This document shows positions 4,481 to 18,621 of a DNA stretch of 64,000 nt, piece after piece. The first letter of the stretch is position 1; each line of letters starts with the position of its first letter. The stretch lies in contig JAHYIY010000002.1 of NCBI GenBank assembly GCA_019429255.1, positions 1-64,000 on the forward strand, in the 5' to 3' direction. Below the pieces are notes generated by a model that did no database searches, was not told the DNA's origin, and worked only from the letters and a program-made list of their open reading frames with translations. The stretch is from Desulfuromonadales bacterium (GTDB lineage: Bacteria > Desulfobacterota > Desulfuromonadia > Desulfuromonadales > Geopsychrobacteraceae). A program made the position numbers and the translations under genes.

Positions 4481-4961
4481 CTTAGTTGAGCCACATGCTT
4501 GCCCGCAGGGTGTAAACCCTTGCGCCCTCTTATCTTCTTGTCGCTTTTCTTCGACCCTTCAGGTTTGTGTTTGCCTTTGCTCCTTTTGGGGTAGAGGCAC
4601 ATTTTTTTTGCGAGGTGCCATTTTATTCTGCCGCACCGTCACTTTTTTTCACTGCTCGCATGGGGATTTTAATCCTGCGGAGCGAAGAAACAATACAGAC
4701 AACCGATTAGATAAAACCCGATTCTAAACTAAAATAATTGATCTAATTCAGTTAGTTGGAGCCATTATTGGGTTGAGCTAAAACCACAAATAGTAAAAAA
4801 TAAACTATCGATTTGGCCAGCAAAATGAATAGTTGCGTAACATGCTGTTTTAAAAGGGGAAAATAAAAATTTCTACTTGACAGGTGGCGGGTGAAGGTCC
4901 ACAATTTATCCATAAAACCTTTTATGGTAATAAATCATATATAACGAAAGAGAGGCTGACA
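4481..4961. other. Gene-free stretch, AT-rich
   Basis: About 480 bp without a convincing gene. The first 120 bp read antisense as a Lys-rich, frame-broken peptide that I do not trust. The distal half is AT-rich and holds a candidate promoter near 4877-4905 ahead of the zinc-ribbon gene. Confidence 0.5.
4877..4905 (+). promoter_or_regulatory. Candidate sigma-70 promoter for the zinc-ribbon gene
   Basis: TTGACA at 4877-4882 is followed after 17 bp by CACAAT at 4900-4905. The -35 box is perfect and the -10 box is weak. The start codon lies 57 bp further on. Confidence 0.35.
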
Positions 4962-5174
4962 ATGCGTTGTCCAGTGTGTGGAAGTTACGAACAGAGTGTT
5001 TTATCGATGAAATCCAAGCAATTTGTCGAGGGATTGGTGGAATGTTCGGTGTGTGGAAGCTCCTGGGCGATCAATCATGGTCATGCTGAAATGGTTGTCG
5101 ATGCCCATCCCCAGAGTTTCCTGACGGGGCAGACTGAATGTGTCGAAGCTGACGATTATGTATGGGCCGCCTGA
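4962..5174 (+). CDS. Small zinc-ribbon protein (70 aa)
   Basis: A 70-residue protein with two CxxC knuckles, CPVCG at residues 3-7 and CSVCG near 28-32. This predicts a single zinc-ribbon fold. The function is not known. The chosen ATG follows GAAAGAGAGG; a longer GTG-initiated reading from 4884 has no ribosome site and puts 26 residues ahead of the first knuckle. A decayed copy lacking the first knuckle lies at 10490-10660 and keeps the downstream order, so this gene and the one at 5361 moved or duplicated as a pair. Confidence 0.72.
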   Translation: MRCPVCGSYEQSVLSMKSKQFVEGLVECSVCGSSWAINHGHAEMVVDAHPQSFLTGQTECVEADDYVWAA

Positions 5175-5203
5175 GGTCTTAGTCTGCTAAAAATTTCGTG
5201 TCA

Positions 5204-5340
5204 GTTCAGCACCGGATCGGGAGTCCTATGTCAAGGGACGCTTTTCGTCATCCATGACCGCTTTTTGTCGCCGTCCATGGCGACAAAAACCCTTGCCACA
5301 GGACCCCCGACCCTGCGCAAGGATAGAGCTGAATAATTAC
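5204..5340 (-). repeat. Palindromic intergenic repeat, copy A (inverted orientation)
   Basis: This is a reverse-complement copy of the element also found at 18384, 24746 and 58936. Its core is TTTGTCGCC-GTCC-ATGGCGACAAA, and its ends read TTCAGC and GCTGAA. The whole unit folds as one long imperfect hairpin. Confidence 0.85.
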
Positions 5341-5360
5341 AAACTTTAAGGAGAGATATT

Positions 5361-5561
5361 ATGGAAGCACATAATTTAAGTGTAGCGGGACCCTGTCGTT
5401 GTGGTGGTCAGGTCAAAATTTTCGGGCCCAGCGATTTTGCTCCACACAGCCATTGGGGACTTTACTGCTCGCATGATAACTGTGAGCATATGGTGAACGG
5501 CGAAACCCTGGAGGCCGCTATTCTCGAGTGGAACCACAGCCTGGAACCGGCCCACAGTTGA
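5361..5561 (+). CDS. Small Lar-like zinc-binding protein (66 aa)
   Basis: A 66-residue protein with CRCGG near residue 13, a second Cys pair CSHDNC near 37, and the ending AAILEWNHS. This pattern resembles the restriction-alleviation Lar family, where a treble-clef or zinc-ribbon ends in an aliphatic-x-WN motif. The similarity is suggestive and says little about function. AAGGAGAG lies upstream of the ATG. A truncated copy sits at 10690-10780 behind the decayed zinc-ribbon gene. Confidence 0.68.
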   Translation: MEAHNLSVAGPCRCGGQVKIFGPSDFAPHSHWGLYCSHDNCEHMVNGETLEAAILEWNHSLEPAHS

Positions 5562-5630
5562 GCTGAAGAGAGAGTTAGCTGATCCGACCTGGGGGCGACT
5601 GCCCTCGCAGTGCGCCCGCGGGCGGCTCGG

Positions 5631-6029
5631 TTATTTCTTTTTTGAAGTCTTTTTCTTTGACCCGGACGATTTCTTTTTGTCCTTGCTCTTTTTGGCTTGA
5701 GTGGACTTCTTTTTATCTTCCTTCGCAGATTTTTTCTTCAGATCCTTGTTTTTCTCCTTGCTCTTCTTTTTCTTCTTCTCGACTTTTTTGTCCTTGTCTT
5801 TTTTGCTGGAGTTACCAGGCGGCACAGGAGTGTCTGCTACCGCAGCTCCGATCAATAGCCGGGCGGCCTCGATCACCTGCCCGGCACGAATCGTATTGAA
5901 TCCTTTGATGGCAGCCAGGTCCCCAACCCGTTTAGCGGCGAGATCTTCAGCGCTGTGGATACCATGATCAGCCAGCAAAACAGCAGTGGTCGGACCGATT
6001 CCAGGGACTTTTTCGATAGATGTTGGCAT
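5631..6029 (-). CDS. Helix-hairpin-helix protein with Lys-rich tail
   Basis: The 132-residue protein starts with a helix-hairpin-helix unit (VPGIGPTTAVLLADHGI then DLAAIKGFNTIRAGQVI, residues 7-50), as used for sequence-independent DNA binding. After a short Pro-rich linker, about 60 residues are almost entirely Lys with Ser, Asp and Glu. Such a tail resembles histone-H1-like or DNA-compacting proteins. An upstream in-frame ATG at 6152 was rejected because AAGGAG sits 7 bases before the ATG at 6029. It lies downstream of the RHH gene and may end the CHAD-ParA-CYTH transcription unit. The Lys tail could also bind polyphosphate, which is an inference from the neighbours. Confidence 0.72.
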   Translation of the reverse strand: MPTSIEKVPGIGPTTAVLLADHGIHSAEDLAAKRVGDLAAIKGFNTIRAGQVIEAARLLIGAAVADTPVPPGNSSKKDKDKKVEKKKKKSKEKNKDLKKKSAKEDKKKSTQAKKSKDKKKSSGSKKKTSKKK

Positions 6030-6051
6030 GTGAATTCTCCTTGATGGTTGG

Positions 6052-6222
6052 TCAGCTCTGTTGGTGCTCCACAACAAACCTGCGGATAAAACGCCTGATT
6101 TCACGGGCTGCGCTGGTATCCAGCTCGTCACATAAGGCGACAAATTGATCACGTTCAGCCGTATTGATGCGGATCAGCAGTTGACTGTCTTTTTTGCCGC
6201 CCTTTTTCTGTTTGTTGCTCAT
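6052..6222 (-). CDS. Small ribbon-helix-helix-like protein (56 aa)
   Basis: A 56-codon gene. After a Lys-rich N-terminus it reads LLIRINTAERDQFVALCDEL and then helix 2, SAAREIRRFIRRFV. This is the strand-helix-helix pattern of ribbon-helix-helix (Arc/CopG-type) DNA-binding proteins. Its ATG overlaps the TGA of the upstream CYTH gene (ATGA), so translation is probably coupled. It may act as a local repressor or as a partner of the ParA ATPase, since ParA-type operons often carry a small RHH protein. That role is inferred from position only. Confidence 0.7.
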   Translation of the reverse strand: MSNKQKKGGKKDSQLLIRINTAERDQFVALCDELDTSAAREIRRFIRRFVVEHQQS

Positions 6223-6731
6223 TTTTCCTCGTCGGTCTGTTGGCCAGTACCTTGACCAATATCCACCGGTAATCCGGCGGTCGCCAACATGGCATTGCTA
6301 AAGGCACGATCCCGGGTGACCTCACGGCCGACAAAGTCCGGCGGAACAAATTCGCGACTGTCGGCAACCGTTGCAAATTCAACTTCAAGCAGTATCAGCG
6401 GTTCCAGCGCACCGCGAAACAGATCCATTTCCAGACAATAGCCTGACTGATCCAAGATATAGCGGGTTTTTTCAACCCGTTTTCCTGCGGTCAGGGGCCA
6501 GAGCATGGCGAACAAATCGCTGTTGATTTCTTTTTCCTGTTCCTGCCGATCCAGACCACTGCCCCGCTTCAAGGTCATGGTGCAGCACCCGGCGCGGTTG
6601 CGGATGCGCAGTTCCTGTTGTGTTTCAAGAAGCAGATAGCCCTGATCGATGTTTTCACCCTGGTGGTCATCCAGAAGACCCGCCGGCAGGGAAGCAACCA
6701 GAAACTTGCGTTCAATCTCCCTGTTCGTCAT
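6219..6731 (-). CDS. CYTH-domain protein (triphosphate tunnel family)
   Basis: A 170-residue CYTH domain. The signature EIERKFLV lies at residues 5-12, followed by alternating charged strands (ELRIRNRAG, TLKRG, EKEI, KRVEKTRYIL, EMDLF, LLEVEF). These line the tunnel that binds metal-triphosphate in inorganic triphosphatases and class IV adenylate cyclases. In most bacteria such proteins hydrolyse tripolyphosphate. The partner CHAD domain is encoded separately in the same operon, whereas many bacteria fuse the two. The start abuts the ParA gene stop at 6732. Confidence 0.9.
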   Translation of the reverse strand: MTNREIERKFLVASLPAGLLDDHQGENIDQGYLLLETQQELRIRNRAGCCTMTLKRGSGLDRQEQEKEINSDLFAMLWPLTAGKRVEKTRYILDQSGYCLEMDLFRGALEPLILLEVEFATVADSREFVPPDFVGREVTRDRAFSNAMLATAGLPVDIGQGTGQQTDEEK

Positions 6732-7487
6732 TTATCCAATACCTGCTAGCTGGAGTTCGACCTCTTCCCATAACGCCAGATAAGCCCTGTTCGCCTGGCG
6801 CCCGCGGGCAAAGAGGTCGAGGGGGGCGCGATGGACCCCCATTCTTTCAACATCGGTTGAATAGGGGATGGCATGGCGCAGAATACGCTTGTACCGCTGA
6901 CGCATGCCCAGGGCCGTATCACGATGCAGCTGCTTGCGCGCATCGACCATGGAGAAAAACGGCAGAAGCTTTTTGCGGTCATAGTCCTTGTCTTTGAAAA
7001 ATCGCACCAGCTGATCATAAGTGCGTTCCGATAAGGGGGTAGGAATCACCGGCACCAGAATCAGATCGGCGGCGACAAAGATATTCTCGGCCAGGCGACT
7101 GACGGATGGTGGACAGTCGAGCAGGATCAGATCGTAATCCTGACTGATTTTTTTCAGCAGGCGCCGCAACACCGTTTCTCTGGAATCCGTCTGTTTTAAC
7201 AGAATATCGAGATTGCGCAGGGATCGTTGGGCCGGAATAAGATCCAGGTTGGAATAGTCACTTTCCCTGATCTGCCCCATAAGGGCATCCGTTTGTTCTA
7301 ATGTCTGTTTTTTCCACTTGCTGCCCGCTTCCGGGCGCACCCGGAAATAAAAGGAAGAGGCCCCCTGGGGATCAAGGTCGATCAACAGGGTTCGCTGCCC
7401 TGATTGTGCTGCTCGGTAGGCCAGATTGACAGCGGCAGCGGTTTTGCCGACCCCGCCCTTGAAGCTGTAACAGGCAACTATTTTCAT
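6732..7487 (-). CDS. ParA/MinD-family P-loop ATPase
   Basis: A 251-residue ATPase with the deviant Walker A motif KGGVGKT at residues 9-15, the switch DLDPQG near 38-43, and Walker B-like LILLDCPPS near 120. This identifies the ParA/Soj family, which forms ATP-dependent dimers and positions cargo on the nucleoid. No ParB is encoded nearby. The gene overlaps the CHAD gene by 4 bases and abuts the CYTH gene. The likely cargo is therefore a CHAD-marked polyphosphate granule, as known for PhaM/ParA-like granule segregation. This cargo is inferred. Confidence 0.88.
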   Translation of the reverse strand: MKIVACYSFKGGVGKTAAAVNLAYRAAQSGQRTLLIDLDPQGASSFYFRVRPEAGSKWKKQTLEQTDALMGQIRESDYSNLDLIPAQRSLRNLDILLKQTDSRETVLRRLLKKISQDYDLILLDCPPSVSRLAENIFVAADLILVPVIPTPLSERTYDQLVRFFKDKDYDRKKLLPFFSMVDARKQLHRDTALGMRQRYKRILRHAIPYSTDVERMGVHRAPLDLFARGRQANRAYLALWEEVELQLAGIG

Positions 7488-8998
7488 GATCCACCATCCT
7501 GTGCCGCTGCATCTGTAAATAGTTTTTGAAACTGTTCGGCGATCTCGGTGTCGGAAAAAGCCGCTATCATGTCAACCACCTGCCCCCGCTCATGTTGTTG
7601 TTTGCTGTAAAGTACGGCGATCAGTCCGCTGATGGCATCCCGCTCGGCGGTTTTTATTCCAGCACCGCGCAGCAAAGACTCAAGGAATAAGCATTGAGAG
7701 GAATAATCATTAAAACGTCCGAGGTTGTCCTGTAATTTTTTCAGTGCCTTGATCAATTGCCGCACCTGATCGTATGCAAAGAGTTCGGCAAACAGCTCAA
7801 GCAGATACCTCAACTTTTTGGCTTCGATGCGTACTTCATGAACCCGGTCGTCGGGGGTTGTTGCGTCAATGCGGGCGTCATGTCGCTTGATCTTGCGATA
7901 TTGCGACAAGATTTTGCGACTGACCCGCTTTTTGATCGCAGTACCGGAACGCGGGGCAGAGAGATCCGGTGGCTCTTTTAGCCGCTGCTCAAGTTGCTGG
8001 GCGGTTTCAAGATATTCTTCCTGTTTGAGGGTTGCCGTGACCTTGCACCAGACCTTCCGGCGACGGCCCCTCAAGCGTTTAAACAGCCCCTCAAGCCCGG
8101 GGTGGAAATGTGCCGGCAGCATGGCACGGTAGCCATCCTGATCAAGCAGAAAAACATCAAGGTCACGCAATTGATTGGTGGTTTTTGCCATGCTCTTCAA
8201 TGGTTTTTGGATGGCGCAATAAAGCTGAGGGGTGAGTTCTTTTTTAAACAGGCTGAGTAACGATCGCCCTTTGCGTAGGTTAACCCGGTACTGATGGGTA
8301 AATTCGCTATCGATGTCGGCGATCAGCCCTTCTTCCTGTTGCCGTGCCAGGCTTAATAGCTCCGCTACCATTCTCAGAACGATTTCCGCTGTCGGCAGAT
8401 CCGGGTTGACGTGAAACCCCGGTTTGGTCGCAGGAGGGTTCGGGTTCAGGCCGCAGCGTTGGAGCAGAAACTTGCGGGTGATTGCTGACGGGCAGGTCCT
8501 GGTTACGGGGTTGAGGCCATTGACAAGAGCTTGCACCTCCTGATTGTAACCCCGCAGTGCGTGTATTTTCAGAAAAGAGGGCGGCGCTGGTGTGGTGTCA
8601 ACAAGGTGGTAAAGGGTGGCGCGGGCAACAATTTTATCATCGCTGTTCAGAAAGGCCAGCGGCTGCTCCTGCCAGCGACTGTTGAATTGAGGAAGCAGAG
8701 CGCGTACCGAGACCAGGGGTTTCAAAGCGCTGAAAAGGGGGTCTTTCAGCTGTGCGATAAGGGATGGCCAACGCTTGGCAGGGACAGCCACGCTCAGTTG
8801 ATCGTCGCGATCATAGAGCTCCAGGCCGTTGCCGGCGACATGTACCAGCACCTGTCCGGACATCCAGATCGCCCAGTCGACTGTGTCGAGGACTGTCAGT
8901 TGGCGCGGTTCAGGGTTTTCCGCGCAAACCCTCATTCTGGTCAGCTGTTCCAGATCTGCGAGCGGAAGTGATTGTTTAAGCTCAAGATAATGATTCAC
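7484..8998 (-). CDS. CHAD-domain protein
   Basis: The 504-residue protein has a CHAD domain from about residue 225 to 500. Conserved basic helices HQYRVNLRKGRSLLSLF, TNQLRDLDVFLL and HEVRIEAKKLRYLLE form the positively charged polyphosphate-binding channel. The first 200 residues match no domain I recognise. CHAD proteins bind inorganic polyphosphate and localise to granules. The GTG start at 8998 is the only reasonable one before MNHYLELKQ. It is first in a tightly coupled run CHAD-ParA-CYTH-RHH and is followed upstream by ppk2. Confidence 0.88.
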   Translation of the reverse strand: MNHYLELKQSLPLADLEQLTRMRVCAENPEPRQLTVLDTVDWAIWMSGQVLVHVAGNGLELYDRDDQLSVAVPAKRWPSLIAQLKDPLFSALKPLVSVRALLPQFNSRWQEQPLAFLNSDDKIVARATLYHLVDTTPAPPSFLKIHALRGYNQEVQALVNGLNPVTRTCPSAITRKFLLQRCGLNPNPPATKPGFHVNPDLPTAEIVLRMVAELLSLARQQEEGLIADIDSEFTHQYRVNLRKGRSLLSLFKKELTPQLYCAIQKPLKSMAKTTNQLRDLDVFLLDQDGYRAMLPAHFHPGLEGLFKRLRGRRRKVWCKVTATLKQEEYLETAQQLEQRLKEPPDLSAPRSGTAIKKRVSRKILSQYRKIKRHDARIDATTPDDRVHEVRIEAKKLRYLLELFAELFAYDQVRQLIKALKKLQDNLGRFNDYSSQCLFLESLLRGAGIKTAERDAISGLIAVLYSKQQHERGQVVDMIAAFSDTEIAEQFQKLFTDAAAQDGGS

Positions 8999-9078: not shown

Positions 9079-9945
9079 TTAGTAGATTTCCGGTACATAC
9101 CGGGGTTCGTCAACCACCGGGCGCTCATAACCGATTTCCGGCGGGCGTCGTGGCAATTCAACCGGTCCCGGCGTCAGATCTTCGTAGTCAAACATGCTCA
9201 GCAAATGGGAGATAACATTAAGGCGGGCGCGTTTTTTGACATCGCCATCAACTTGATACCAGGGGGCTTCACTGATGTTGGTGTGGACGAACATCTCATC
9301 ACGGGCGATGCTGTAATCGACCCAGCGGGAGCGTGATTTCAGATCGATGTCGCTCAGCTTCCAGCGCTTGATGGGGTCGGCGTTGCGGGCATGGAAGCGT
9401 TTTTCCTGCTCTTCGTTGCAGATGGAGAACCAGTATTTGATCAGCACAATGCCGCTGCGTACCAGCATCCGCTCAAATTCCGGGCAGGAGCGCATGAATT
9501 CCCGATATTCGGACTCGGTGCAAAAGCCCATGACCCGCTCGACCCCGGCGCGGTTGTACCAGCTGCGGTCGAACAGCACCAGTTCACCCCCGGCGGGAAG
9601 ATGCTCAACGTAACGCTGGAAGTACCACTGACTGCGCTCCCGCTCGGTCGGGGCCGGCAGAGCCACAACCCGGGTAATGCGCGGATTGAGGGGCTCGGTG
9701 ATGCGGGTGATGGCACCCCCCTTGCCGGCGGCGTCGCGTCCTTCGAAGAGTACCACCACTTTGAGCTTTTTCTGGCGAACCCACTCCTGTAGCTTCACCA
9801 GCTCAATCTGTAGACGCTTGAGTTCTTGCTGGTAGGTTTTGTTGTCGATGGACTTAAGGGGAACCAAACGCTTGCCACTGTCGCGTTGATATTTGCGTCG
9901 CTGCTTGCTTTTCTGCTCTTTGGGGAAGGTGTTGTCCTGGCTCAT
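9079..9945 (-). CDS. ppk2: Polyphosphate kinase 2
   Basis: A 288-residue PPK2. Walker A GRDAAGKGG lies near residue 58, Walker B LFDRSWYNR near 112, and the lid region RKRFHARN-type reads EKRFHARNADPIKRWKLS near 185. The enzyme transfers phosphate between polyphosphate and nucleotides. The start at 9945 follows AAGGAGGGCGT, which fixes it over an upstream extension to 10083 that would run through the sixA frame. It overlaps the sixA-like gene by 4 bases. A deletion remnant of a second ppk2 lies at 11726-11912. Confidence 0.92.
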   Translation of the reverse strand: MSQDNTFPKEQKSKQRRKYQRDSGKRLVPLKSIDNKTYQQELKRLQIELVKLQEWVRQKKLKVVVLFEGRDAAGKGGAITRITEPLNPRITRVVALPAPTERERSQWYFQRYVEHLPAGGELVLFDRSWYNRAGVERVMGFCTESEYREFMRSCPEFERMLVRSGIVLIKYWFSICNEEQEKRFHARNADPIKRWKLSDIDLKSRSRWVDYSIARDEMFVHTNISEAPWYQVDGDVKKRARLNVISHLLSMFDYEDLTPGPVELPRRPPEIGYERPVVDEPRYVPEIY

Positions 9946-10409
9946 ACGCCCTCCTTCTTGGGATAATCGTAATATCTCAGACGCGCACAACCCGGCGTCA
10001 GGGCTGACCAGTCGGTTAGTTCCAGGGTCAGCTCCAGCACGGCACAGGTGGGTAGCCATTCGGGAGCCGGAGGGTAGAGCCACCGTCCGATCAGGGCGAT
10101 CTGGTCGACGTCAGGCAGGTTGCGCACCACCTCAATCAGTGTTGTCAGGGAAGCGTCATAAATGCTCCGGTCATAGGAAACTACAGCCTCAGGCAAGTCA
10201 AGGCCTTTGGCCGGCAAGCGGGTGGTCTCAAGGGCACGCCGGGCCGGACTGCTGAGTAAATATTCCGGGGTGCTACCACGTTCGACTATGCGTTTGGCCA
10301 TCCGTGGTGCCGTCTTGTTGCCGCGCCGGTTAAGGGGGCGATCAACATCACGTTCGGCGTCACTGGTCCAGTCCGATTTGGCGTGGCGGATCAAGGTCAG
10401 TTTTTTCAT
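9942..10409 (-). CDS. sixA: SixA-like phosphohistidine phosphatase, internal deletion
   Basis: A 155-residue histidine phosphatase of the SixA type. The catalytic RHAKSDW (RHG-type) motif is present at residues 8-14. Comparison with the intact paralogue at 11926 shows a 9-codon in-frame gap: here IALIGRWLYPPAPEW, there IALIGHNPGLSHLGLWLCPQAPEW. The missing segment holds the second catalytic His of the family (GHNPG). The protein is therefore probably inactive or altered. It starts the ppk2 transcription unit; the start is set by alignment to MKKLTLIRHAKSDW of the paralogue. Confidence 0.8.
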   Translation of the reverse strand: MKKLTLIRHAKSDWTSDAERDVDRPLNRRGNKTAPRMAKRIVERGSTPEYLLSSPARRALETTRLPAKGLDLPEAVVSYDRSIYDASLTTLIEVVRNLPDVDQIALIGRWLYPPAPEWLPTCAVLELTLELTDWSALTPGCARLRYYDYPKKEGV

Positions 10410-10489
10410 GCTCAACCCCCTAAAAGTAGGCTCGGCCAGTTTCCCCCTCCTCAGAGATTTACAGAAACAATGATGCACTAACTATCCAA

Positions 10490-10660
10490 ATGAAATCCAA
10501 GTAATTCGCCGAGGGCTTGGTAGAGTGTACAACCTGCGGCAGTTCCTGGTCGATCAATCATGGTCATGCTGAAATGGTTGTCGATGCTCATCCCGGGAGT
10601 TTTCTGGAAGGGCAAACCGTCTGTGTTGAGGCTGACGATTACGTGTGGGTGGAATAACCA
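10490..10660 (+). pseudogene. Decayed copy of the zinc-ribbon gene at 4962
   Basis: Reads MKSK-stop-FAEGLVECTTCGSSW and onward to DDYVWVE-stop, closely matching residues 16-70 of the protein at 4962. The first zinc knuckle and start region are missing and an early TAA interrupts the frame. Confidence 0.8.
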
Positions 10661-10689
10661 CCCTTTTTTTGAATTTAGGGAGATATGTT

Positions 10690-10780
10690 ATGGAAGCACT
10701 GAACGTTAATGTCGCTGGTTCCACGGGGCCAGCAACAAGGGCAGGTGACTTCGATGAGGCCACCTGCCCTTGTTGGTAAA
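10690..10780 (+). pseudogene. Truncated copy of the Lar-like gene at 5361
   Basis: Starts MEALNVNVAGSTGP, matching MEAHNLSVAGPC of the intact gene, with a similar upstream GGGAGATAT. After a dozen codons it runs into the hairpin that follows the membrane-protein pair and stops. Confidence 0.65.
10733..10775 (-). terminator. 15-bp perfect stem-loop behind the membrane-protein pair
   Basis: CAACAAGGGCAGGTG and CACCTGCCCTTGTTG form a perfect 15-bp stem with a 13-nt loop, 26 bp after the stop at 10801. No T-run follows. An analogous hairpin follows the second copy of the pair at 47518. Confidence 0.6.
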
Positions 10781-10800
10781 TCAGCGGGTGAAATGTCAGC

Positions 10801-11025
10801 TTAGTTTTTTGCGGCTACAGTTTTGCGTGAGCCCTGGGCGACAGCTTTGGTCAGGCCGAACAGCACCAGAATCGCCGGTACCAGCTGGGCGACAATAATC
10901 AACGCACAGAAACCGACAAACAAAAGAACCAGTAATCCGCTGCTGTAGGTAACCGCGGTATCAACGGCAAAGGCTGGAGCAGCAAGAATCAAGACAACGG
11001 CGAGGGATGATAATAATGATTTCAT
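10801..11025 (-). CDS. Small exported/membrane protein, pair member B1
   Basis: A 74-residue protein. It has a typical signal peptide (MKSLLSSLAVVLILAAPAFA, cleavage after AFA), a short SSG-containing segment and one strong transmembrane helix (LLVLLFVGFCALIIVAQLVPAI). A basic tail ends in KN. The function is unknown. It is nearly identical to the protein at 47583 and distantly similar to its upstream partner at 11114; the shared core is FVGFCALIIVxQLVPA. AAGGAGAAA precedes the start. It is co-transcribed with 11114 from the sigma-54 promoter at 11401. Confidence 0.75.
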   Translation of the reverse strand: MKSLLSSLAVVLILAAPAFAVDTAVTYSSGLLVLLFVGFCALIIVAQLVPAILVLFGLTKAVAQGSRKTVAAKN

Positions 11026-11113
11026 GAGGTTTCTCCTTATTGATGAAAAGGTTCAGCTTCAGGCACCTGATGATTAGTGACCGGTGCCTGAAGTTCATGT
11101 GCTCGTCAAGATG

Positions 11114-11341
11114 TTAACTTTTTACCTTGATAGCTTCACGGTCACGTCCGAACAGGCCCCTGAGAATTCCGACCATCATCAGGGTCGCCGGTACCAGCTG
11201 GAATACAATAATCAGGGCAAAAAAGCCCAGGAATAAAGAGACCAGCAGACTTCCTTCTCCAGCACCGGTGGCCCCGGCAGCAAAGGCAGAAGAAGAAAAG
11301 GTCAACAGGGCGATCAGGGCATTACGTAATGTGGTTTTCAT
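11114..11341 (-). CDS. Small exported/membrane protein, pair member A1
   Basis: A 75-residue protein. A signal peptide ends near SSSAFAAG, then comes a Gly-rich segment and a transmembrane helix (LLVSLFLGFFALIIVFQLVPATLMM), followed by the basic tail GLFGRDREAIKVKS. It is almost identical to the protein at 47841. A two-gene cassette kept in two places suggests the pair works together in the inner membrane, perhaps as a hetero-oligomer or stress protein. That is a guess. The sigma-54 promoter lies 60 bp upstream. Confidence 0.75.
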   Translation of the reverse strand: MKTTLRNALIALLTFSSSAFAAGATGAGEGSLLVSLFLGFFALIIVFQLVPATLMMVGILRGLFGRDREAIKVKS

Positions 11342-11400
11342 GATGTCCTCCTATGGCAAGCTGCTGAAGATCAGCATGCTGTGTTGTTGACTTTCTATAA

Positions 11401-11416
11401 AGCAGGGACCGTGCCA
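11401..11416 (-). promoter_or_regulatory. Sigma-54 promoter of membrane-protein pair, copy 1
   Basis: On the minus strand this reads TGGCACGGTCCCTGCT: GG and GC are separated by 10 bases as required for -24/-12 boxes. The same sequence is kept at 48128 upstream of the second copy, TGGCACGCTCCCTGCT, with changes in the spacer only. Confidence 0.75.
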
Positions 11417-11725
11417 ACATCTGGAAATTTCTCTGCGAAAGGCTTCAACTAGCTGAAATTATTCAGTGGAAGATTTTTGAGTAGGGGATGGGAGGGGTCT
11501 GTAGCGCATTGTTCTTCTGAGGATGTATATAGGCAAAATATACAGGCAAGGCACCAGGATGCCCCAGGATGGTTCACTATTGAAGTCTAACTTGTTGATA
11601 CTTAAGAAAAATATCGATGTATAAAATAATCAGATGTTTTTTTTGTACACTGCTATTTTCCTGAGAAGTCCTCTCCTGAACCAATGTCATGCCTCTTTTC
11701 GCTGTTCAGGCCGGTCGACAAATAA
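11417..11725. other. Gene-free upstream region shared with the second cassette
   Basis: No gene is seen. Blocks such as TGTATAAAATAATCAGATG followed by a T-run and GTACACT (11618-11651) recur at 48345-48378. The duplication therefore includes 200-300 bp upstream of the sigma-54 promoter, where enhancer sites would lie. Confidence 0.55.
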
Positions 11726-11912
11726 TCAGTATCTTTCCGGCACATAGTCAGGTTCGTTTATTTTCCGGCGAACCCATTCCTGAAGCTTGACCAGCTCAAT
11801 CTGCAGGCGTTTAAGTTGTTTTTTATTGATGCTTTTCTGCGACAGGCAAGGTTCACCGCTATCACGCTCATATTTGCGCCGCTGTTGGTGTTTCGCGCCC
11901 TTGGATTACACA
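11726..11912 (-). pseudogene. ppk2 remnant with large internal deletion
   Basis: Reading minus strand, the frame gives QRRKYERDSGEPC and KRLQIELVKLQEWVRRK, matching the N-terminus of the intact PPK2. It then jumps directly to NEPDYVPERY-stop, matching its C-terminus DEPRYVPEIY. About 210 codons, including both Walker motifs, are gone. The ATG behind AAGGAGG is out of frame with the remnant. Confidence 0.85.
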
Positions 11913-11925
11913 TCAGCACCTCCTT

Positions 11926-12411
11926 CTAGTGCTTTGGATAATCGTAACCAGCCAGGGTCGCGCAACCGGGTGTGACCGCAGCCCAGTCATCAACAGTAAG
12001 TTCGAGTTCCAGCACTGCACAGGTCGGCAGCCACTCGGGAGCCTGCGGGCATAGCCACAGGCCAAGATGACTAAGGCCGGGGTTATGGCCAATCAGTGCA
12101 ATATGCTCTGGGGCGGACAGTTGACGTATAATGTCTATCAATGTTGCCAGAGAGGCTTCATAAATATTGCGGTGGAAGATAATCTGCTCTTGCGCCAACT
12201 CAAGTCCTTGCGCCAGCAATGTAGCTGTTTCGGCCGCTCGCTGTGCCGGGCTGCTGACCAGCAGATCAGGCACGCTACCGCATTTAAGGATGCGTCCGGC
12301 CATCATCGTGGCCGCCTTGTTGCCCCGCCGGTTGAGTGGGCGCTCAAAGTCGCTTGCCGCACCACTACTCCAGTCTGACTTGGCGTGGCGAATCAGGGTA
12401 AGCTTTTTCAT
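11926..12411 (-). CDS. sixA: SixA-like phosphohistidine phosphatase, intact
   Basis: A 161-residue phosphohistidine phosphatase. RHAKSDW at residues 8-14 supplies the nucleophilic His and GHNPG near 107 the second His, both needed for catalysis. In E. coli the homologue dephosphorylates His-phosphorylated phosphotransfer proteins. Here the neighbours suggest a link to phosphate or nitrogen-PTS signalling, which is unproven. It is the better-preserved member of the duplicated ppk2-sixA pair; its own downstream ppk2 is the remnant at 11726. Confidence 0.88.
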   Translation of the reverse strand: MKKLTLIRHAKSDWSSGAASDFERPLNRRGNKAATMMAGRILKCGSVPDLLVSSPAQRAAETATLLAQGLELAQEQIIFHRNIYEASLATLIDIIRQLSAPEHIALIGHNPGLSHLGLWLCPQAPEWLPTCAVLELELTVDDWAAVTPGCATLAGYDYPKH

Positions 12412-12529
12412 CTAAATCTCCCGCGGTGATCAGTAGTTCTTGCAGCTTCTGACCTTTTTGGTTAATTTTAGCATTGAATCTCATAGGCCGTGTTTTATTC
12501 AACCTATTCACACATTGAAAGGTTAGCAG

Positions 12530-12712
12530 ATGAGCTGTTTAAAGGGTAAATCCGACGTAAAAAAAACCAAGGCCAAGTTTGTCTGCAAAAAATGTGATGC
12601 CCTTACCCGGGACAAGGATGAAGTCTGTAAGCCGGAAAAGCTAGAAAAGGCAAAAGAGCCGAAAAAAGACGGGAAAAAAGCTAAGGATAAGAAAAAAACT
12701 CCCAAGGGATGA
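12530..12712 (+). CDS. Small Lys-rich Cys-containing protein (60 aa)
   Basis: A 60-residue protein with about one third Lys. Cys residues at positions 3, 19, 22 and 33 include a CKKC knuckle, so one zinc could be bound. The second half is an Ala/Glu/Lys tail. GAAAGG precedes the ATG by 7 bases. The composition is like the tail of the HhH protein at 5631. A nucleic-acid or polyphosphate-binding role is possible but not shown. Confidence 0.62.
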   Translation: MSCLKGKSDVKKTKAKFVCKKCDALTRDKDEVCKPEKLEKAKEPKKDGKKAKDKKKTPKG

Positions 12713-12721
12713 CAGCTGCTG

Positions 12722-13327
12722 CTAACAGATACGGCTGAACACCGCCATCTGCGTTGAACCTCCCAACCTCATATCTACCTCTCCGATGTCGGAAAAGGTC
12801 ACCTGATAACCATTGCGTTCGGCGACTCCTTGCGCCCAGCGGCGAAATTTTTGCCGGTCCCACTCGAATTGATGATCAGGATGGCGAAATCGCCCTGGAA
12901 CCATGCCGTGGAGGAGGTTATATTCGCTGTTGGGGGTGGTGATCAGAACCGTCTGCGGGGCATAACCGGAAAACACGGCACGCTCCACTAATGATAACCG
13001 CCCCGGCGCCACATGTTCGATGGTTTCGACCAGTGCAACGGCGTCAAACCCCTTTAGCTCATCAATAAAGTCAGTGAATGAAGCCTGATATAGGGTCAGC
13101 CGGGTGCCATCCGCCTGATGCCGGTGAAGAGCCAGTTGATACCGGGCTTCCTGCAGCACCTCCTGCGAGGTATCAATCCCAACAATGCGGCGAAACTGCG
13201 GCTGCTTGGCCAGCAGCAGCAGCAACTCTCCCGGGCCACAACCCAGATCCAGTACCGTCACGGCCCCACTGCCGCAGAGGGCTTCAACCACTGTATCGAG
13301 GCGTTCTTTATGCAGAAGAGTGACCAT
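12722..13327 (-). CDS. Hen1-like RNA 2'-O-methyltransferase domain protein
   Basis: A 201-residue SAM methyltransferase. Motif I is VLDLGCGPGELL near residue 24. The pair ETIEHV near 110 and RHPDHQFEWDRQKFRRWA near 150, with PNSEYN between, matches the metal-dependent Hen1 family, which methylates the 2'-OH of RNA 3' ends using Glu/Glu/His/His and a divalent metal. Bacterial Hen1 usually has an extra N-terminal domain and a Pnkp partner for RNA repair. Neither is seen here, so this is a stand-alone catalytic domain whose RNA substrate is unknown. It is convergent with the gene at 12530. Confidence 0.82.
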   Translation of the reverse strand: MVTLLHKERLDTVVEALCGSGAVTVLDLGCGPGELLLLLAKQPQFRRIVGIDTSQEVLQEARYQLALHRHQADGTRLTLYQASFTDFIDELKGFDAVALVETIEHVAPGRLSLVERAVFSGYAPQTVLITTPNSEYNLLHGMVPGRFRHPDHQFEWDRQKFRRWAQGVAERNGYQVTFSDIGEVDMRLGGSTQMAVFSRIC

Positions 13328-13383
13328 CGGGGTCCGTTGTAAAGGTTAGCGGCCATGCAGATCTGGTGCCGCACAGATTGTTT

Positions 13384-13782
13384 TTATTCGAGCAGATCCT
13401 GAGGTGAATACACAACTTTGCCATGTAACAGAGAATAGTAGCGAATCCAGCCTGGCGCGTGTGACATGAAACCGGAGATGGCAATCACCACAATCAGGAT
13501 GATAATGGTGTGTTGCAGGGCGAAATGCAATGCCAATAACAGCAGCAATTTCAGATAGACAGCAAAACCCCTTAACTGAACAAACCAGATCCAGCCGGAA
13601 TAGGCTTCCATCCCGACCAGGACAACACCCGAAATCATGGTCAGATAAAAATACGTCGGCTCCGATGCCCTAAACATGGCGGCACCGAACATTCCCGCCA
13701 TACCGATCAGGTGAATGGTCCTGACCGCGACCTTGGTCAACCGCCGTACGCTGTTATCGGGAAGATCTTTCAGAAAGGACAT
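13384..13782 (-). CDS. Hypothetical membrane protein (132 aa)
   Basis: An unrecognised inner-membrane protein with three or four transmembrane helices: around residues 20-40, 46-62, 75-92 and 90-108. There is a basic N-terminus and a cytoplasmic-looking C-terminus. HIS residues in helix 1 (RTIHLIGMAG) and helix 3 (LHFALQH) could bind haem or metal, which is speculation. It follows moeA on the same strand after 80 bp and may end that operon. Confidence 0.65.
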   Translation of the reverse strand: MSFLKDLPDNSVRRLTKVAVRTIHLIGMAGMFGAAMFRASEPTYFYLTMISGVVLVGMEAYSGWIWFVQLRGFAVYLKLLLLLALHFALQHTIIILIVVIAISGFMSHAPGWIRYYSLLHGKVVYSPQDLLE

Positions 13783-13861
13783 AAAGGAGACGGCCTCTTA
13801 AATGAATGATCTGAAACAAGGCGGACGAAACAGGTCGGCGGATTCTGTCCCACGCAACCGA

Positions 13862-15073
13862 TCAAGTTGGTTCAACCTCGCTAAAAAGCACTACGTCGAC
13901 CTTGTCGCCCGCATCAACGGTGCCCTGCGCTTCAGGCAGTACGGCAATACCATTGGCGCGCAACGATGTACGCAGGATGGCGGTATTCTGATCGCCTGAA
14001 CTTTCAGCAATCAACTGCCGCCCATCGCTGAAAACCCGCACGCGATAAAACTCCAGGCGTCCTTTTTTCTTCATATGCGAACCGGCAAAGACAGCCTGGA
14101 CCCGAGCTCGAAACAGCTGTTGATGCCCTATCATCTTTAGCAAAGCAGGTCGCACCAGCATTTCAAAGATGACCATACTCGACACCGGGTTGCCCGGCAG
14201 GGAGAATATCGGACGACCCTGGTGGGTTCCAAAAGCCGTCGGCTTGCCCGGTTTGATGTTGATTTTCGAGAACAGTCGCCTGACGCCGAACTCCTCCAGT
14301 ACATCATTAACCAGATCGAGGTCACCCATGGAAATGCCGGCCGTGGTAACTAAGACGTCAGCATCACGGCTATCATTGAGTTTTTCCATCAGGCTTTCGC
14401 GAGAATCTCGGGCAATGCCGAGAAGGCAGGGAATGCCGCCAATGTCGCGTACGGCCGCAGCAAGGGAGTAGGCATTGCTATTAACAATCTGTCCGGGACC
14501 GACACTGTCACCGGGTTCAACCAGTTCATCGCCGGTAGACAGGATGGCAACCCGCACTCGACGATATACCTCGATGAAAGGCATGCCGAAGGTCGCCAGA
14601 ACATTGATTTCCGGGGGTCTTAAAAGGGTCCCGGCAGTCAGTGTCAGATCGCCTTTACGGATATCTTCTCCGCGCATCCGAATATGTCTGCCCAATCGGA
14701 TTTTCCCTTTGATAATCAGCTTACCGTCAGTTTCTTCGGTTTCTTCAATGGGGACAATGGCGGCACAGGCTTCCGGAGTGGGGGCCCCGGTCATAATCCG
14801 TACAGCGGTGCCGGGCTTAACCGTCATGCCGATGGCGCTGCAGCCGGCAGGCAAATAACCATCTATGATCAGGGGTACCGGAGATTCACAATCAGCGGCA
14901 TTCAGGGCGAAGCCGTCCATGGCTGAGTTATTCCAAAGCGGCAGGTCGGCAGGCGCGTGGATATCTTGTGCCAGCACCCGGCCGGATGCCTCTGATAAAG
15001 CCACCAACTCGGTCGGCAGCAACGACACAGTTTCGAGGATTAACCTGGAGGCAGAAGCAAAGCTCTCAGCCAT
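13862..15073 (-). CDS. moeA: Molybdopterin molybdotransferase MoeA
   Basis: A 403-residue MoeA/GephE-type enzyme. It inserts molybdate or tungstate into adenylylated molybdopterin. Motifs include LPLWNNSAMDGFAL near residue 43, RIMTGAPTPEACAAIVPIEE near 93, the GD-rich core ILSTGDELVEPG near 180, TTAGISMGDLDLV near 240 and SLPGNPVSSMV near 295. It lies in a run with a tungstate ABC transporter, MoaD- and ThiF-like proteins and downstream of the tungsten aldehyde oxidoreductase. A role in tungsten cofactor assembly is therefore likely. Confidence 0.93.
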   Translation of the reverse strand: MAESFASASRLILETVSLLPTELVALSEASGRVLAQDIHAPADLPLWNNSAMDGFALNAADCESPVPLIIDGYLPAGCSAIGMTVKPGTAVRIMTGAPTPEACAAIVPIEETEETDGKLIIKGKIRLGRHIRMRGEDIRKGDLTLTAGTLLRPPEINVLATFGMPFIEVYRRVRVAILSTGDELVEPGDSVGPGQIVNSNAYSLAAAVRDIGGIPCLLGIARDSRESLMEKLNDSRDADVLVTTAGISMGDLDLVNDVLEEFGVRRLFSKINIKPGKPTAFGTHQGRPIFSLPGNPVSSMVIFEMLVRPALLKMIGHQQLFRARVQAVFAGSHMKKKGRLEFYRVRVFSDGRQLIAESSGDQNTAILRTSLRANGIAVLPEAQGTVDAGDKVDVVLFSEVEPT

Positions 15074-15092
15074 TTATATCTCTCCGTGTTGT

Positions 15093-15758
15093 TCAAATCC
15101 GCAGACATGCTGCGGTGGGTTGAGCCGGCAATATACCATTGTTGATGCACAGCAGTTCGGCACCTATACGTTCCGCCTGAAACCGGTCATGGGTAGAAAA
15201 AACAACGGTGACGCCATATTTTGGCAGCCTTGCCAGCAGCCCTTCAAAAGCCGGTTGGCTGTTACCGTCGATATTAGCTGTTGGTTCATCCAGCAGCAAC
15301 AGGTCAGGTTTTAATATCAGGGCGCGCGCCAGAGCTACCTTCTGGGTCTCACCGGAAGAAAGCTCGTTGGCTTGACGTCGTTCAAAGCCCTCGAGTCCGA
15401 CAATGGACAGGGTTAAGGTAATCCGTCGCGCCTGTTCTTCGCGGGCAACTCCCCGCAGTTTGAGCCCGTAGGCAAGATTATCGCTGACCGTGCCCTGAAA
15501 CAGATAGGGTGACTGCTCAACATAGGTGACTTTTTTACGCAATTGATCCGGATCCCTGGTGGTTGAACCGGGAAACCGAACAGCTCCACGCTGGGGATCG
15601 ATTAACAGGGCCATTATTCTCAGCAAGGTACTCTTGCCGGCGCCGTTAGCTCCGGTCAAAGCATAAACCCGCTTTGGAAAAAGCTCCAGATACTCCACAG
15701 ACAAACGAAAATCACCACGACCAAAGAGAATCTGCTTCAACGTCACAACCGGTTCCAT
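15093..15758 (-). CDS. tupC: Tungstate/molybdate ABC transporter ATPase (TupC-like)
   Basis: A 221-residue ABC ATPase: Walker A GANGAGKST near residue 36, Q-loop EQSPYLF, signature LSSGETQKVALARAL near 137, Walker B LLLLDEPTANID. No C-terminal Mop domain is present, as is usual for TupC. It follows tupB by 5 bases. The ATPase is intact, although the partner permease is frameshifted and the binding protein is a remnant. Confidence 0.82.
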   Translation of the reverse strand: MEPVVTLKQILFGRGDFRLSVEYLELFPKRVYALTGANGAGKSTLLRIMALLIDPQRGAVRFPGSTTRDPDQLRKKVTYVEQSPYLFQGTVSDNLAYGLKLRGVAREEQARRITLTLSIVGLEGFERRQANELSSGETQKVALARALILKPDLLLLDEPTANIDGNSQPAFEGLLARLPKYGVTVVFSTHDRFQAERIGAELLCINNGILPAQPTAACLRI

Positions 15759-15762
15759 CGTC

Positions 15763-16450
15763 TCACCTTTGCTGTAACATGTTCAGAAACAGGTTGACAA
15801 TCAATGCCACAGAGAGCAGGACAAGACCTAAAGACAGACCAAAAACAAATTCTCCTTTGCTGGTTTCAAGCGCAATAGCGGTGGTCATGGTGCGGGTTGA
15901 ACCACGGATATTGCCGCCCAGCATCATCGCTACGCCGACTTCGGCAATCACTCTTCCGAATCCCGCGATCAGCGCTGCCATAACGCCAAACCGGATTTCT
16001 CTGATCAACTGGACCGAAGCCTGTAAATGCGTTGCACCCAGCGTTCTGGCCGTATCAATAACACGGTGATCGGCGCCAATTGACACAGGCAAGAACATAA
16101 TTGGCGACAATGGGTATGGCCAGAACTGTCTGCCCGGCAATCATCGCCACGGGAGTAAACAGCAGCCCGAGTTCGCCCAACGGCCCCTGCCGGCTGAACA
16201 GGCCGAACAACACCAGACCGATGACCACCGTCGGCATCGCCATCAGGGTATTGAGCAGGGTAATCAGCACCCTGCGTCCGGGAAACCGCCGCAAGCCAAG
16301 CCACAAACCGACAGGGATACCAAGAGCCGCCGCAATGACAATGGCAACGCAGGCAGTATAAAGGGAGGTCCAGACAGCAAGCTGAACCTCCCGATCAAAA
16401 CTGAAAATCAATTCGACAGCCGCAAACAGGGAGTCGGACAAATAGTTCAC
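15763..16450 (-). pseudogene. tupB: Tungstate ABC permease tupB, frameshifted
   Basis: Two overlapping reading frames together make a full TupB-like permease. The first (GTG at 16450, after AAGAGG) runs through four membrane segments to AIPIVANYVLA. The second continues from SIGADHRVIDTARTLGA, the EAA-type ATPase contact, through FGRVIAEVGVAMMLGGN to the end. A one-base indel near 16075-16100 separates them. It is either real decay or a sequencing error in the source. Confidence 0.8.
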
Positions 16451-16459
16451 GCATACCTC

Positions 16460-16605
16460 TTAGTGCGTATAAAAGAGTTGATCTCCGGCCATCTGAAAAC
16501 TGTTGATGAACTCTTGTCGACTCTCCGAGGTCATAAAGTCAAGGGATTTCTGAGCAAAGACCTGCTTGATACGGGGTGCCGTGCGGGACAAACCATGATG
16601 ACCAC
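16460..16605 (-). pseudogene. tupA: C-terminal remnant of tungstate-binding protein tupA
   Basis: The last ~45 codons read RIKQVFAQKSLDFMTSE and end DQLFYTH-stop, the usual tail of TupA-type binding proteins. Just upstream in another frame VIMVCPARHP fits the preceding family segment, so a frameshift also lies near 16560. The rest of the gene is missing and the ThiF-like gene begins at once. Confidence 0.7.
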
Positions 16606-16613
16606 AGTCGCTT

Positions 16614-17450
16614 TCATTGCACCGGAATGTCATCAAACTGCATTTGCAGCAAATCCACTGACAATATCCGCTCGTCCAACAGCCCTCCCTGTCCGAGTAG
16701 AACCTTGCAGACTTCCGCTGCTTGAAAACTTCCCACAACCGCCGGAGTAAAGGACGGATTGCCGAATGTCGACTCGATCCCCTTACCTGCTGTCCAGTTG
16801 GCGTAGAGCTTTTGCATGGTGCCTTGACCTGGTTTGATGCAACCCACCTGACCAAACCAGCCGGCAATCGCGCCATACACCAGAGGAACCTCAACCTGAT
16901 GGCAGATCTGTTCAAGATCAAGGCGGCCCTTGACATTGTCGATAGCGTCAACCACAACGTCGACGCCGCTCAGGATGTCGACACCGTTGTCTCTTCCCAC
17001 AATAACCTGCCGCGGTTCGACCTTAACAGCGGGATTGATCTCTGTAACCCGACTGACAGCTGCGGCCACCTTGGAAGTGCCGAGATTGGTGATTGTTGAT
17101 AGCAGTTGCCGGTTCAGGTTGTGCTCTTCAAAAACATCCGAATCGATTACCCGCAACCGACCGACACCCAGCCGTGCCAGTTCTTCGATGACATAACCAC
17201 CCAGACCGCCGCAACCGACCACGGCCACTCGTGATTTTAACAGCTGGAGCTGCTGTGTTATTGAGATCATGTGACGGTTACGCTGGTAACGAGCGGGGAG
17301 AAAACCGGACTGCATGATAAGTTCGTCAGCTTCGCTGCAGGTTACACCAATCAGATCCATCAATTTCAGCTGATTCGGCCAGGAAACGAGATCGCCCTCA
17401 GCGTGCCCGGAAAAAAAATCCTTCAGTTGCTCATGGTCAATATTTTTCAT
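16614..17450 (-). CDS. ThiF/MoeB-family E1-like adenylyltransferase
   Basis: A 278-residue E1-like enzyme. The nucleotide site VAVVGCGGLGGYVIEELARLGVG lies near residue 72, followed by the DxDxFxxxNLNRQ motif (RVIDSDVFEEHNLNRQ) and DAIDN near 170. It should adenylate the C-terminal Gly-Gly of the MoaD-like protein encoded one base upstream. The first 65 residues are an added segment not present in MoeB. Zn-binding CxxC pairs typical of MoeB are absent. Linked to the aldehyde oxidoreductase, it probably serves the tungsten pyranopterin pathway. Confidence 0.85.
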   Translation of the reverse strand: MKNIDHEQLKDFFSGHAEGDLVSWPNQLKLMDLIGVTCSEADELIMQSGFLPARYQRNRHMISITQQLQLLKSRVAVVGCGGLGGYVIEELARLGVGRLRVIDSDVFEEHNLNRQLLSTITNLGTSKVAAAVSRVTEINPAVKVEPRQVIVGRDNGVDILSGVDVVVDAIDNVKGRLDLEQICHQVEVPLVYGAIAGWFGQVGCIKPGQGTMQKLYANWTAGKGIESTFGNPSFTPAVVGSFQAAEVCKVLLGQGGLLDERILSVDLLQMQFDDIPVQ

Positions 17451-17451
17451 A

Positions 17452-17679
17452 TTATCCCCCTCCGACCAGGGGGAAAATCGCCAGGACATCATTATCGGCA
17501 AGCTGCCGTTGTAAATCGACATGCACTGAATTCAACAACAGAATGCCAATTTCCGTTTCCGGTATCTTCAACTCCCTGACAACATCGGCAACTGTCGTTG
17601 CTGGTGGATACTCCCGGATCTCGCGATCAAAGCGGTCAATGCGAAATGAGGCAAAAAGTTTAACCGTAACCTGTATCAT
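17452..17679 (-). CDS. MoaD/ThiS-family sulfur carrier protein
   Basis: A 75-residue beta-grasp protein ending in Val-Gly-Gly-Gly, the tail activated as a thiocarboxylate. Family features are VKLFASF near the N-terminus, the middle motif LLLNSVHVDLQRQLADND and the ending DVLAIFPLVGGG. It donates sulfur in molybdopterin (or thiazole) synthesis. The adjacent ThiF-like gene is the likely activator. Such MoaD copies are common beside tungsten aldehyde oxidoreductases. Confidence 0.88.
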   Translation of the reverse strand: MIQVTVKLFASFRIDRFDREIREYPPATTVADVVRELKIPETEIGILLLNSVHVDLQRQLADNDVLAIFPLVGGG

Positions 17680-17744
17680 AGTACTCCTCCGCTCATGGGG
17701 ATCATATATGGGTGCGAGGTGGGAAAGGGAAAGTAAGGAAAGGT

Positions 17745-18359
17745 TCAGTCTTTCCAGACTACCTTTAATAAAACCGTCTGTTGAGGGGCCAGGGTTGTCA
17801 GCAGTTTCCCCCCCAGCTCAGCACAGGGGTACAGTTGGCTATTCAGAGCAAAAGAATCGCAACCGTCCCGGAATGAAGAAGCTCCTTCATCCAACAATGT
17901 GATCAGCTCAGCGCCTGAAAGAAGAACCCCCCTTTCCAACAACAAAGGGCCGACCTCTTGCATGAGCATATTGAACAGCTTGATTTTAACCTTGCCCGCG
18001 CCAATCGTAGCTGTCTGTGTCGGATGATAGGTAATTTCGCCACGCATGGCGGCCAGATGTCCGCCACGACGCATGGTCGAACCGACCAAACCAGGCATGG
18101 CTGATGACAGGGCCAGGGTTGATCCATCTTTGACAATTGACGCAGCTGCATCATCAATTGCCTTGCCATCGAGAAACAGGGTCGTAATCCGATCCGTCAC
18201 ATAAGCTTCAGCGATACCGAGCTGGTTATTCAAGAGTTTCATAACGTTATCGCCGGTTATCACCGGCAACCAGACACCCCGTTGCAGCAGCGGATAAAAT
18301 TCGCTGATCAAGTGTGCTTTAAGGGTTAACTGTAAATTCAGATCGGTAGCAGCTTGCAT
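17745..18359 (-). CDS. Hypothetical protein of the aldehyde-oxidoreductase operon
   Basis: A 204-residue protein that I do not recognise. It has no signal peptide or membrane helix. Two segments resemble each other weakly: FYPLLQRGVWLPVITGDNVMKLLNNQLG near residue 22 and VGPLLLERGVLLSGAELITLLDEG near 140. This hints at an internal duplication around a small MoaD-like centre (VTDRITTLFLDGKAIDD ... ALSSAMPGLVGSTMRRGG). It sits between the aldehyde oxidoreductase and the sulfur carrier, so a cofactor or assembly role is plausible. Confidence 0.6.
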   Translation of the reverse strand: MQAATDLNLQLTLKAHLISEFYPLLQRGVWLPVITGDNVMKLLNNQLGIAEAYVTDRITTLFLDGKAIDDAAASIVKDGSTLALSSAMPGLVGSTMRRGGHLAAMRGEITYHPTQTATIGAGKVKIKLFNMLMQEVGPLLLERGVLLSGAELITLLDEGASSFRDGCDSFALNSQLYPCAELGGKLLTTLAPQQTVLLKVVWKD

Positions 18360-18383
18360 CGTCGGCCCTTCTTTAAAAAATAT

Positions 18384-18541
18384 GTAACTATTCAGCTCTA
18401 TCCTTGCGCAGGGTCTTTGGATCCTGTGGCAAGGGTTTTTGTCGCCATGGACGGCGACAACAAGCGGTCAGGGATGACCCAACGGGAAACAATCGCGTCC
18501 CTTGACATAGGCCTCCCGATCCTGTGCTGAATAGATACAAA
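18384..18541 (+). repeat. Palindromic intergenic repeat, copy B
   Basis: Starts GTAACTATTCAGC and ends GCTGAATAGATACAA, with the core TTTGTCGCCATGGACGGCGACAA. The arms GGATCCTGTGGCAAGGG and GTCCCTTGACATAGG pair with each other. It closely matches copies C and D. Confidence 0.88.
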
Positions 18542-18562
18542 AATATATAAATAGCAATCTGT

Positions 18563-18594
18563 TAAAAAAACCGGGGCCGTTAACGCGCCCCGGT
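18563..18594 (-). terminator. Rho-independent terminator of the aldehyde oxidoreductase
   Basis: ACCGGGGC and GCCCCGGT form the stem at 18570-18594. On the minus strand it is followed by seven T residues, 28 bp after the stop at 18622. A T-run on the other side makes it bidirectional. Confidence 0.85.
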
Positions 18595-18621
18595 CTTTTT
18601 TCTGTCAGAAATCAGATGATA

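Follow-up and report, generated by a model that had tools for sequence, protein, structure and literature searches.

Two diverged sixA-ppk2 gene pairs with complementary gene loss in the genome of a Desulfuromonadales bacterium

How does one genome come to carry two adjacent sixA-ppk2 gene pairs, each with a different gene broken? The locus that raises this question lies in a stretch of 64,000 nucleotides (nt) of contig JAHYIY010000002.1 from a Desulfuromonadales bacterium (assembly GCA_019429255.1), hereafter the window, and all coordinates are window positions. Copy 1 consists of sixA1 and ppk2, and copy 2 of sixA2 and a ppk2 remnant (Table 1). Each version contains one broken gene, and no intact sixA or ppk2 was found in the genome beyond the one of each that survives here. 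The best explanation, to which we assign a probability of roughly 0.7, is that two diverged adjacent versions of the pair were redundant, that a different gene decayed in each, and that each version now contributes one gene of the working pair. The own genome (G000) is compared below with its congeners, mainly Pelovirga terrestris (G003), a congeneric metagenome-assembled genome (G001), and G002.

In copy 1, ppk2 is intact and shows nothing unusual. In a profile search it reached 376.1 bits against TIGR03707, the model of the P. aeruginosa type of PPK2 (cut-off 301.8), covering nearly the whole model (positions 2-226 of 230), and its product is 84-86% identical in amino acids to that of the single ppk2 of G003 and G001; two motifs that we take to be Walker A and Walker B are visible in the translation. 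The adjoining sixA1 has lost, in frame, exactly 27 nt at 10086/10087, which correspond to the H-N-P-G-L-S-H-L-G codons of sixA2, and comparison with G003 showed that the edges of the deletion have two bases (GG) in common. The second His, that of the GHNP motif, is thereby missing; it aligns with the GHNP His of the solved chain 2rfl, a putative SixA, and we take it to be catalytic, as in the histidine phosphatase superfamily.

The SixA alignment has 104 rows, which represent 96 distinct sequences, and the GHNP His is kept in 103 of them, sixA1 being the sole exception. These rows comprise the two copies in the window, the best 80 of 510 loci, and 22 of the 28 loci of relatives (L005-L032), six partial or weak loci (L027-L032) having been left out. 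H109, N110, and P111 are the only sites absent from sixA1 among those that 90% or more of the 98 background rows conserve. Its first catalytic His is present, R8-H9 of the RH motif being invariant in an alignment of 32 sequences (A1), and its reading frame is open, without an internal stop. SixA1 would be catalytically dead or nearly so.

The state of copy 2 is the opposite. The sixA2 product exceeds the PF00300 cut-off (35.2 vs 21.7 bits), retains both catalytic His residues (H9, invariant, and H109, nearly invariant), and is 78% identical in amino acids to that of G003 and 69% to that of G001. It shares the RH motif, the conserved Arg, and the GHNP motif with the SixA phosphohistidine phosphatases of PF00300, whereas SixA1 is without the GHNP segment; its best solved-structure matches are 2rfl and 3f2i (Alr0221 protein). 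Since both copies belong to PF00300 but fall under the cut-off of the NCBIfam sixA model (TIGR00249; 28.9 and 44.4 bits, cut-off 74.5), sixA is used here as a label, and both proteins are best called SixA-like.

The ppk2 remnant of copy 2 holds 59 codons, of which 48 derive from the 5' part of the gene and 11 from its 3' end. Relative to copy 1, 229 codons are gone: the start lacks 7 and the interior 4, and a single in-frame block of about 218 is also missing from the interior. Additionally, the in-frame start codon is lost and an in-frame TAA lies directly upstream. The remnant is a pseudogene. Chance similarity or a spurious open reading frame was considered and ruled out (sixA2 vs sixA1, E = 3e-55; remnant vs ppk2, E = 2e-10). 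These data largely agree with a preliminary description of this DNA: in copy 1, the intact ppk2 and the sixA-like gene lacking nine codons with the second His were reported correctly, coordinates included, and the alignments show the deficit as a 27-nt gap. For copy 2, the intact sixA and the reduction of ppk2 to its two ends were also correct, but the internal loss was put at about 210 codons, against about 218 measured, and the missing start codon and the upstream TAA were not mentioned.

The complementarity of the losses, which had likewise been proposed, depends on the absence of further copies. Within the limits of the assembly, which spans 2.74 Mb and is 99.93% complete, the own genome has only two sixA places and two ppk2 places, and no third copy of either gene was found in it at E <= 0.001, so that each pair retains the gene lost by the other. 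SixA was matched in 17 of 44 family genomes (own included), and two matches occurred in the own genome only. Across 60 genomes (own included), sixA was matched in 25 and ppk2 in 23; a second sixA match, weak and with 24-31% identity, was seen in four order-level genomes, and a second ppk2 match, mostly distant, in several others. Within the genus, the pair region is doubled in one of four genomes, namely the own, and G001 and G003 each carry one intact pair, with methyltransferase and small-gene neighbours as at copy 2. Neither G001 nor G003 holds relics of copy 1, and the G002 locus ends inside ppk2 at a contig end and is hence uninformative in this respect. No further copy-1-type pair was detected among the 44 family genomes, the four of the genus included, and no shortened SixA was observed in the other 43 family genomes or in the other 103 aligned rows. 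A 47-nt match in the G002 contig C93 was considered as a sixA relic and discarded, tblastn being unconvincing (best sixA1 E 0.65).

The relationship of the two copies was evaluated by trees from chosen relatives, with 18 rows for the sixA protein, 9 for rpoB, 13 and 10 for ppk2 and the concatenation, and 14, 10, 12, and 10 for further approximately unbiased (AU) analyses; the ppk2 row of genome G022 was left out of the ppk2 trees because of stops in its translation. In nucleotide identity, sixA2 is closer to the sixA of G003 than to sixA1 (78.3% vs 66.9%), and the ppk2 remnant, over 177 nt, is closer to G003 than to copy 1 (80.8% vs 68.9%). In the concatenation of sixA and ppk2, copy 2 and G003 were grouped with a support of 100/99, and copies 1 and 2 forced as a clade were rejected (AU p 0.00117; codon positions 1+2, p 0.0272). 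In copy 1, ppk2 takes a position outside G001, G002, and G003 with a support of 98/95, on a branch that is not unusually long. On DNA, sixA1 alone falls inside G001 with support that is not strong (87/81), and in the sixA protein tree the position of copy 1 among the four genus sequences is not resolved. Of the two, copy 2 most likely represents the native orthologue, in agreement with the rpoB species tree, (G001,(G000,(G002,G003))), and copy 1 is probably older than the split from G003 or derived from another lineage.

Based on these results, the proposed scenario is as follows. Both pairs would at first have been intact and redundant, so that one gene in each was dispensable and free to decay. 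The SixA-like phosphatase would now be supplied by copy 2 and the polyphosphate kinase by copy 1. The ancestral two-gene unit would thus have been split, with sixA2 and ppk2 about 2 kb apart and the memB and memA genes, a relic of a CPxCG-type gene, and the shortened sixA1 between them; given this distance and the intervening genes and relic, transcription of sixA2 and ppk2 as one unit has probably ceased. When two redundant pairs decay neutrally, one case in two should end reciprocally, and the outcome is therefore no evidence of a selective process or a special mechanism; overall, the case looks like ordinary decay of redundant genes. If copy 1 is old or imported, sixA1 may have lost its His before the copies came together in one genome, a possibility that the reading as decay after duplication takes for granted did not happen.

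Several results weigh against this scenario. Tested singly, the genes leave sister copies unrejected at 0.05 (sixA, p 0.0621; ppk2 remnant columns, p 0.0534), and because these values are borderline, it is the combination of the genes that carries the rejection. As sixA places copy 1 inside G001 and ppk2 places it outside G001, the two genes of copy 1 may lack one common history. The branch codon models, fitted to four sequences (three for the ppk2 of copy 1), are weak, synonymous change being nearly saturated. On the sixA1 branch, omega was 0.27 vs 0.13 elsewhere, which is not significant (twice the log-likelihood difference, 2dlnL, of 2.47), and omega = 1 fitted worse (2dlnL 5.59). As the frame is without a stop and the branch is not neutral as a whole, sixA1 may still do something. 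Further, sixA1 is not singled out by these models, since intact genes shift too: omega was 0.12 vs 0.05 (2dlnL 7.30) for the ppk2 of copy 1, 0.06 vs 0.18 (2dlnL 5.72) for the sixA of G001, and 0.18 vs 0.14 (2dlnL 0.31) for sixA2. The remnant branch gave 0.17 vs 0.11 (2dlnL 0.35), omega = 1 being worse by 3.86. The omegas are compatible both with lesions that are recent in comparison with the branches and with a still-constrained sixA1, and do not separate these two cases.

Concerning its origin, copy 1 is probably either a second pair that was imported or an old paralogue retained only in the own genome, and the data do not choose between the two. Under the import, recombination would have inserted a xenologue next to the resident pair, the donor being a relative close to the base of the genus, and the resident ppk2 would have been lost afterwards; this reading is put forward tentatively, at somewhat short of an even chance. 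A single gain would account for the presence of copy 1 in the own genome only, whereas an old duplication requires losses in G001 and in the line of G002 and G003. Recombination between species is also visible next door: about 5.7 kb of the window (~2000-7750) is ~96.5% identical to G003 (86-100% in 250-nt bins), compared with ~81% in the rest of the CHAD gene and 84.6% between the two genomes at rpoB, and is likely a tract exchanged between species by recombination, one edge of which falls within the CHAD gene, near 7750. In addition, the ppk2 genes of G002 and G003 are 93.9% identical over 462 nt, against 85.7% at rpoB. However, no donor lineage was found among the best 80 of 510 loci or the 44 genomes, and the GC content of copy 1 is not foreign (58.9/56.9% vs 56.7% for sixA2), although the GC3 of its ppk2 is 71% compared with 63-67% in the ppk2 of G003 and G001.

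A tandem duplication dating from the base of the genus, after which G001, G002, and G003 lost copy 1 and the own genome kept both copies in a partly decayed state, is a possible history to which we give rather less than even odds. It accords with the position of the copy 1 ppk2 just outside the other genus members, and the outer flanks look ancestral, the methyltransferase side being as in G001 and G003 and the CHAD side as in G002, where ppk2 (cut at the contig end) adjoins the CHAD gene, and in Desulfuromusa kysingii (G026), where the order is sixA-ppk2-CHAD-ParA. Nevertheless, such a history needs at least two extra losses without trace, and no relic of copy 1 was recovered from G001 or G003.

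It is unlikely, in our estimation, that SixA1 has been kept by selection, either as a pseudophosphatase that binds phosphohistidine or as a leader to which the translation of ppk2 is coupled, with the active phosphatase in an independent transcription unit. In favour of such a role, the frame has stayed open despite the lesions, the catalytic loop alone is gone among the highly conserved sites, and omega is below 1. The stop of sixA1 and the start of ppk2 share an ATGA, while these two codons do not overlap in G003 and G001, and the matched regions of sixA and ppk2 lie 18-94 nt apart in five distinct relatives with an adjacent close ppk2, the true ppk2 starts being uncertain for three of the five. 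ATGA overlaps are reported to be associated with coupled translation (PMC6728339), and judging from the overlap it is plausible that the translation of sixA1 and ppk2 is coupled. Against this role, an ordinary redundant gene that recently suffered an in-frame deletion would look alike, one third of deletions preserving the frame, and the shortened form recurs in none of the other genomes and rows surveyed above.

The preliminary description had placed the losses after a recent duplication and suggested comparison with relatives that have one pair; the complementary losses stand and intact single pairs exist in G001 and G003, but copy 2 resembles G003 more than copy 1, and a recent duplication within the lineage is contradicted by the concatenation, though not by the single genes. 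Such a recent duplication in place, followed by reciprocal decay and with a fast-evolving copy 1 that only looks old, is improbable: the tandem arrangement in the same orientation, the presence of two copies in one of 44 genomes only, the single-gene tests, and the raised omega of both copy 1 genes (significant for ppk2 alone) speak for it, but the concatenation rejects it with and without third codon positions, both genes of copy 2 are closer to G003 (81% vs 69% for the remnant and 78% vs 67% for sixA2), and the copy 1 ppk2 lies outside G001 on a branch of ordinary length.

In reciprocal loss, different members are lost from two redundant or duplicated sets, and one functional set is kept overall. 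The outcome at this locus is the same, but it occurred in one genome, in tandem, and between pairs that are probably not sisters. The type of event is already known, and this locus adds one more case, with a mild twist in its origin and in the retained shortened SixA1. Among the papers listed on SixA, PPK2, CHAD, Pelovirga, reciprocal loss, pseudophosphatases and histidine phosphatase pseudoenzymes, coupling, and the operon life cycle (at most 15 per search, judged by title and abstract opening), we found no description of this case. The locus offers a compact snapshot of the splitting of a two-gene unit, in which a second version arrives or arises, the losses differ, and the survivors stand apart, and it illustrates that tandem copies in the same direction are not necessarily recent duplicates. 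For annotation, activity of SixA1 should not be assumed, and 11726-11905 should not be called a gene.

Several findings in the literature bear on the function of these genes. SixA dephosphorylates phosphohistidine, its targets in E. coli including NPr and Ndk (PMC7948535, PMC12934123), and the activity of E. coli SixA requires the first catalytic His (PMC7948535). PPK2 makes or uses polyphosphate and nucleotides, and polyphosphate is bound by CHAD proteins (PMC6537752). Because of these functions, the locus (methyltransferase, sixA-ppk2, CHAD, ParA, and CYTH) is read as a polyphosphate-related module. A ppk-parA-CHAD cluster is described in Acidithiobacillus, and CHAD gene groups of biomining archaea include SixA and PPX (PMC10892726). 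The present locus differs from the Acidithiobacillus cluster in having ppk2 instead of ppk1 and in having the sixA-ppk2 pair twice, in complementary states.

On the minus strand, the genes follow each other 5' to 3' in the order methyltransferase, sixA2, ppk2 remnant, memB, memA, sixA1, ppk2, CHAD, ParA, and CYTH; their positions are given in Table 1.

Table 1. Features of the sixA-ppk2 locus and its surroundings (window positions).
Feature	Position	Strand	State or evidence
CYTH-domain gene	6219-6731	-	barely above its Pfam cut-off
ParA-type ATPase gene	6732-7487	-	
CHAD-domain protein gene, directly downstream of ppk2	7484-8998	-	PF05235, E 3e-49
Copy 1 (sixA1 + ppk2)	9079-10409	-	ppk2 intact, sixA1 shortened
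ppk2 of copy 1, 288 amino acids, P. aeruginosa type	9079-9945	-	intact; PF03976, E 4e-106; TIGR03707
ATGA overlap, sixA1 stop / ppk2 start	9942-9945	-	
sixA1 of copy 1, 155 amino acids	9942-10409	-	27 nt missing at junction 10086/10087; alignments
Relic of a CPxCG-type small protein gene	10490-10657	+	broken; open relative at 4962-5174
memA (our label), small membrane-type protein gene, resembles memB	10801-11025	-	block recurs at 47573-47830
memB (our label), small membrane-type protein gene, between the copies	11114-11341	-	block recurs at 47841-48384
Copy 2 (sixA2 + ppk2 remnant)	11726-12411	-	sixA2 intact, ppk2 dead
ppk2 remnant of copy 2	11726-11905	-	5' and 3' ends only
sixA2 of copy 2, 161 amino acids	11926-12411	-	intact; PF00300
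Methyltransferase gene, upstream of sixA2	12722-13327	-	conserved next to the only sixA-ppk2 pair of G001 and of G003

In G003, a gap of about 22 kb lies between ppk2 and the CHAD gene. Judged by their open reading frames, some of the genes in this gap (10167-20000 of locus L160 and 400-5500 of L161) read as a phosphonate C-P lyase cluster.

Scans for regulatory signals were at the level of chance, with 3 promoter-like sites vs 3.2 in shuffled sequence and 2 terminator-like sites vs 3.8; an inverted repeat at 10733-10775 is not among the latter. At gathering thresholds, the Rfam scan of the window gave zero matches, so that no RNA element was found in the region. A dispersed repeat of about 100-160 nt, spotted via shared matches in G003 and G002, occurs at 5195-5342, 18377-18542, and 24744-24904, and it also lacks an Rfam match at those thresholds. 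The CPxCG relic upstream of sixA1 is 81% identical over 160 nt to its open relative, which has weak zinc-ribbon matches under the Pfam cut-offs. The block of memB and memA is present twice in the window (10791-11657 and 47573-48384, 80-85% identical), and memB has 7 matches in the own genome and 8 in G003.

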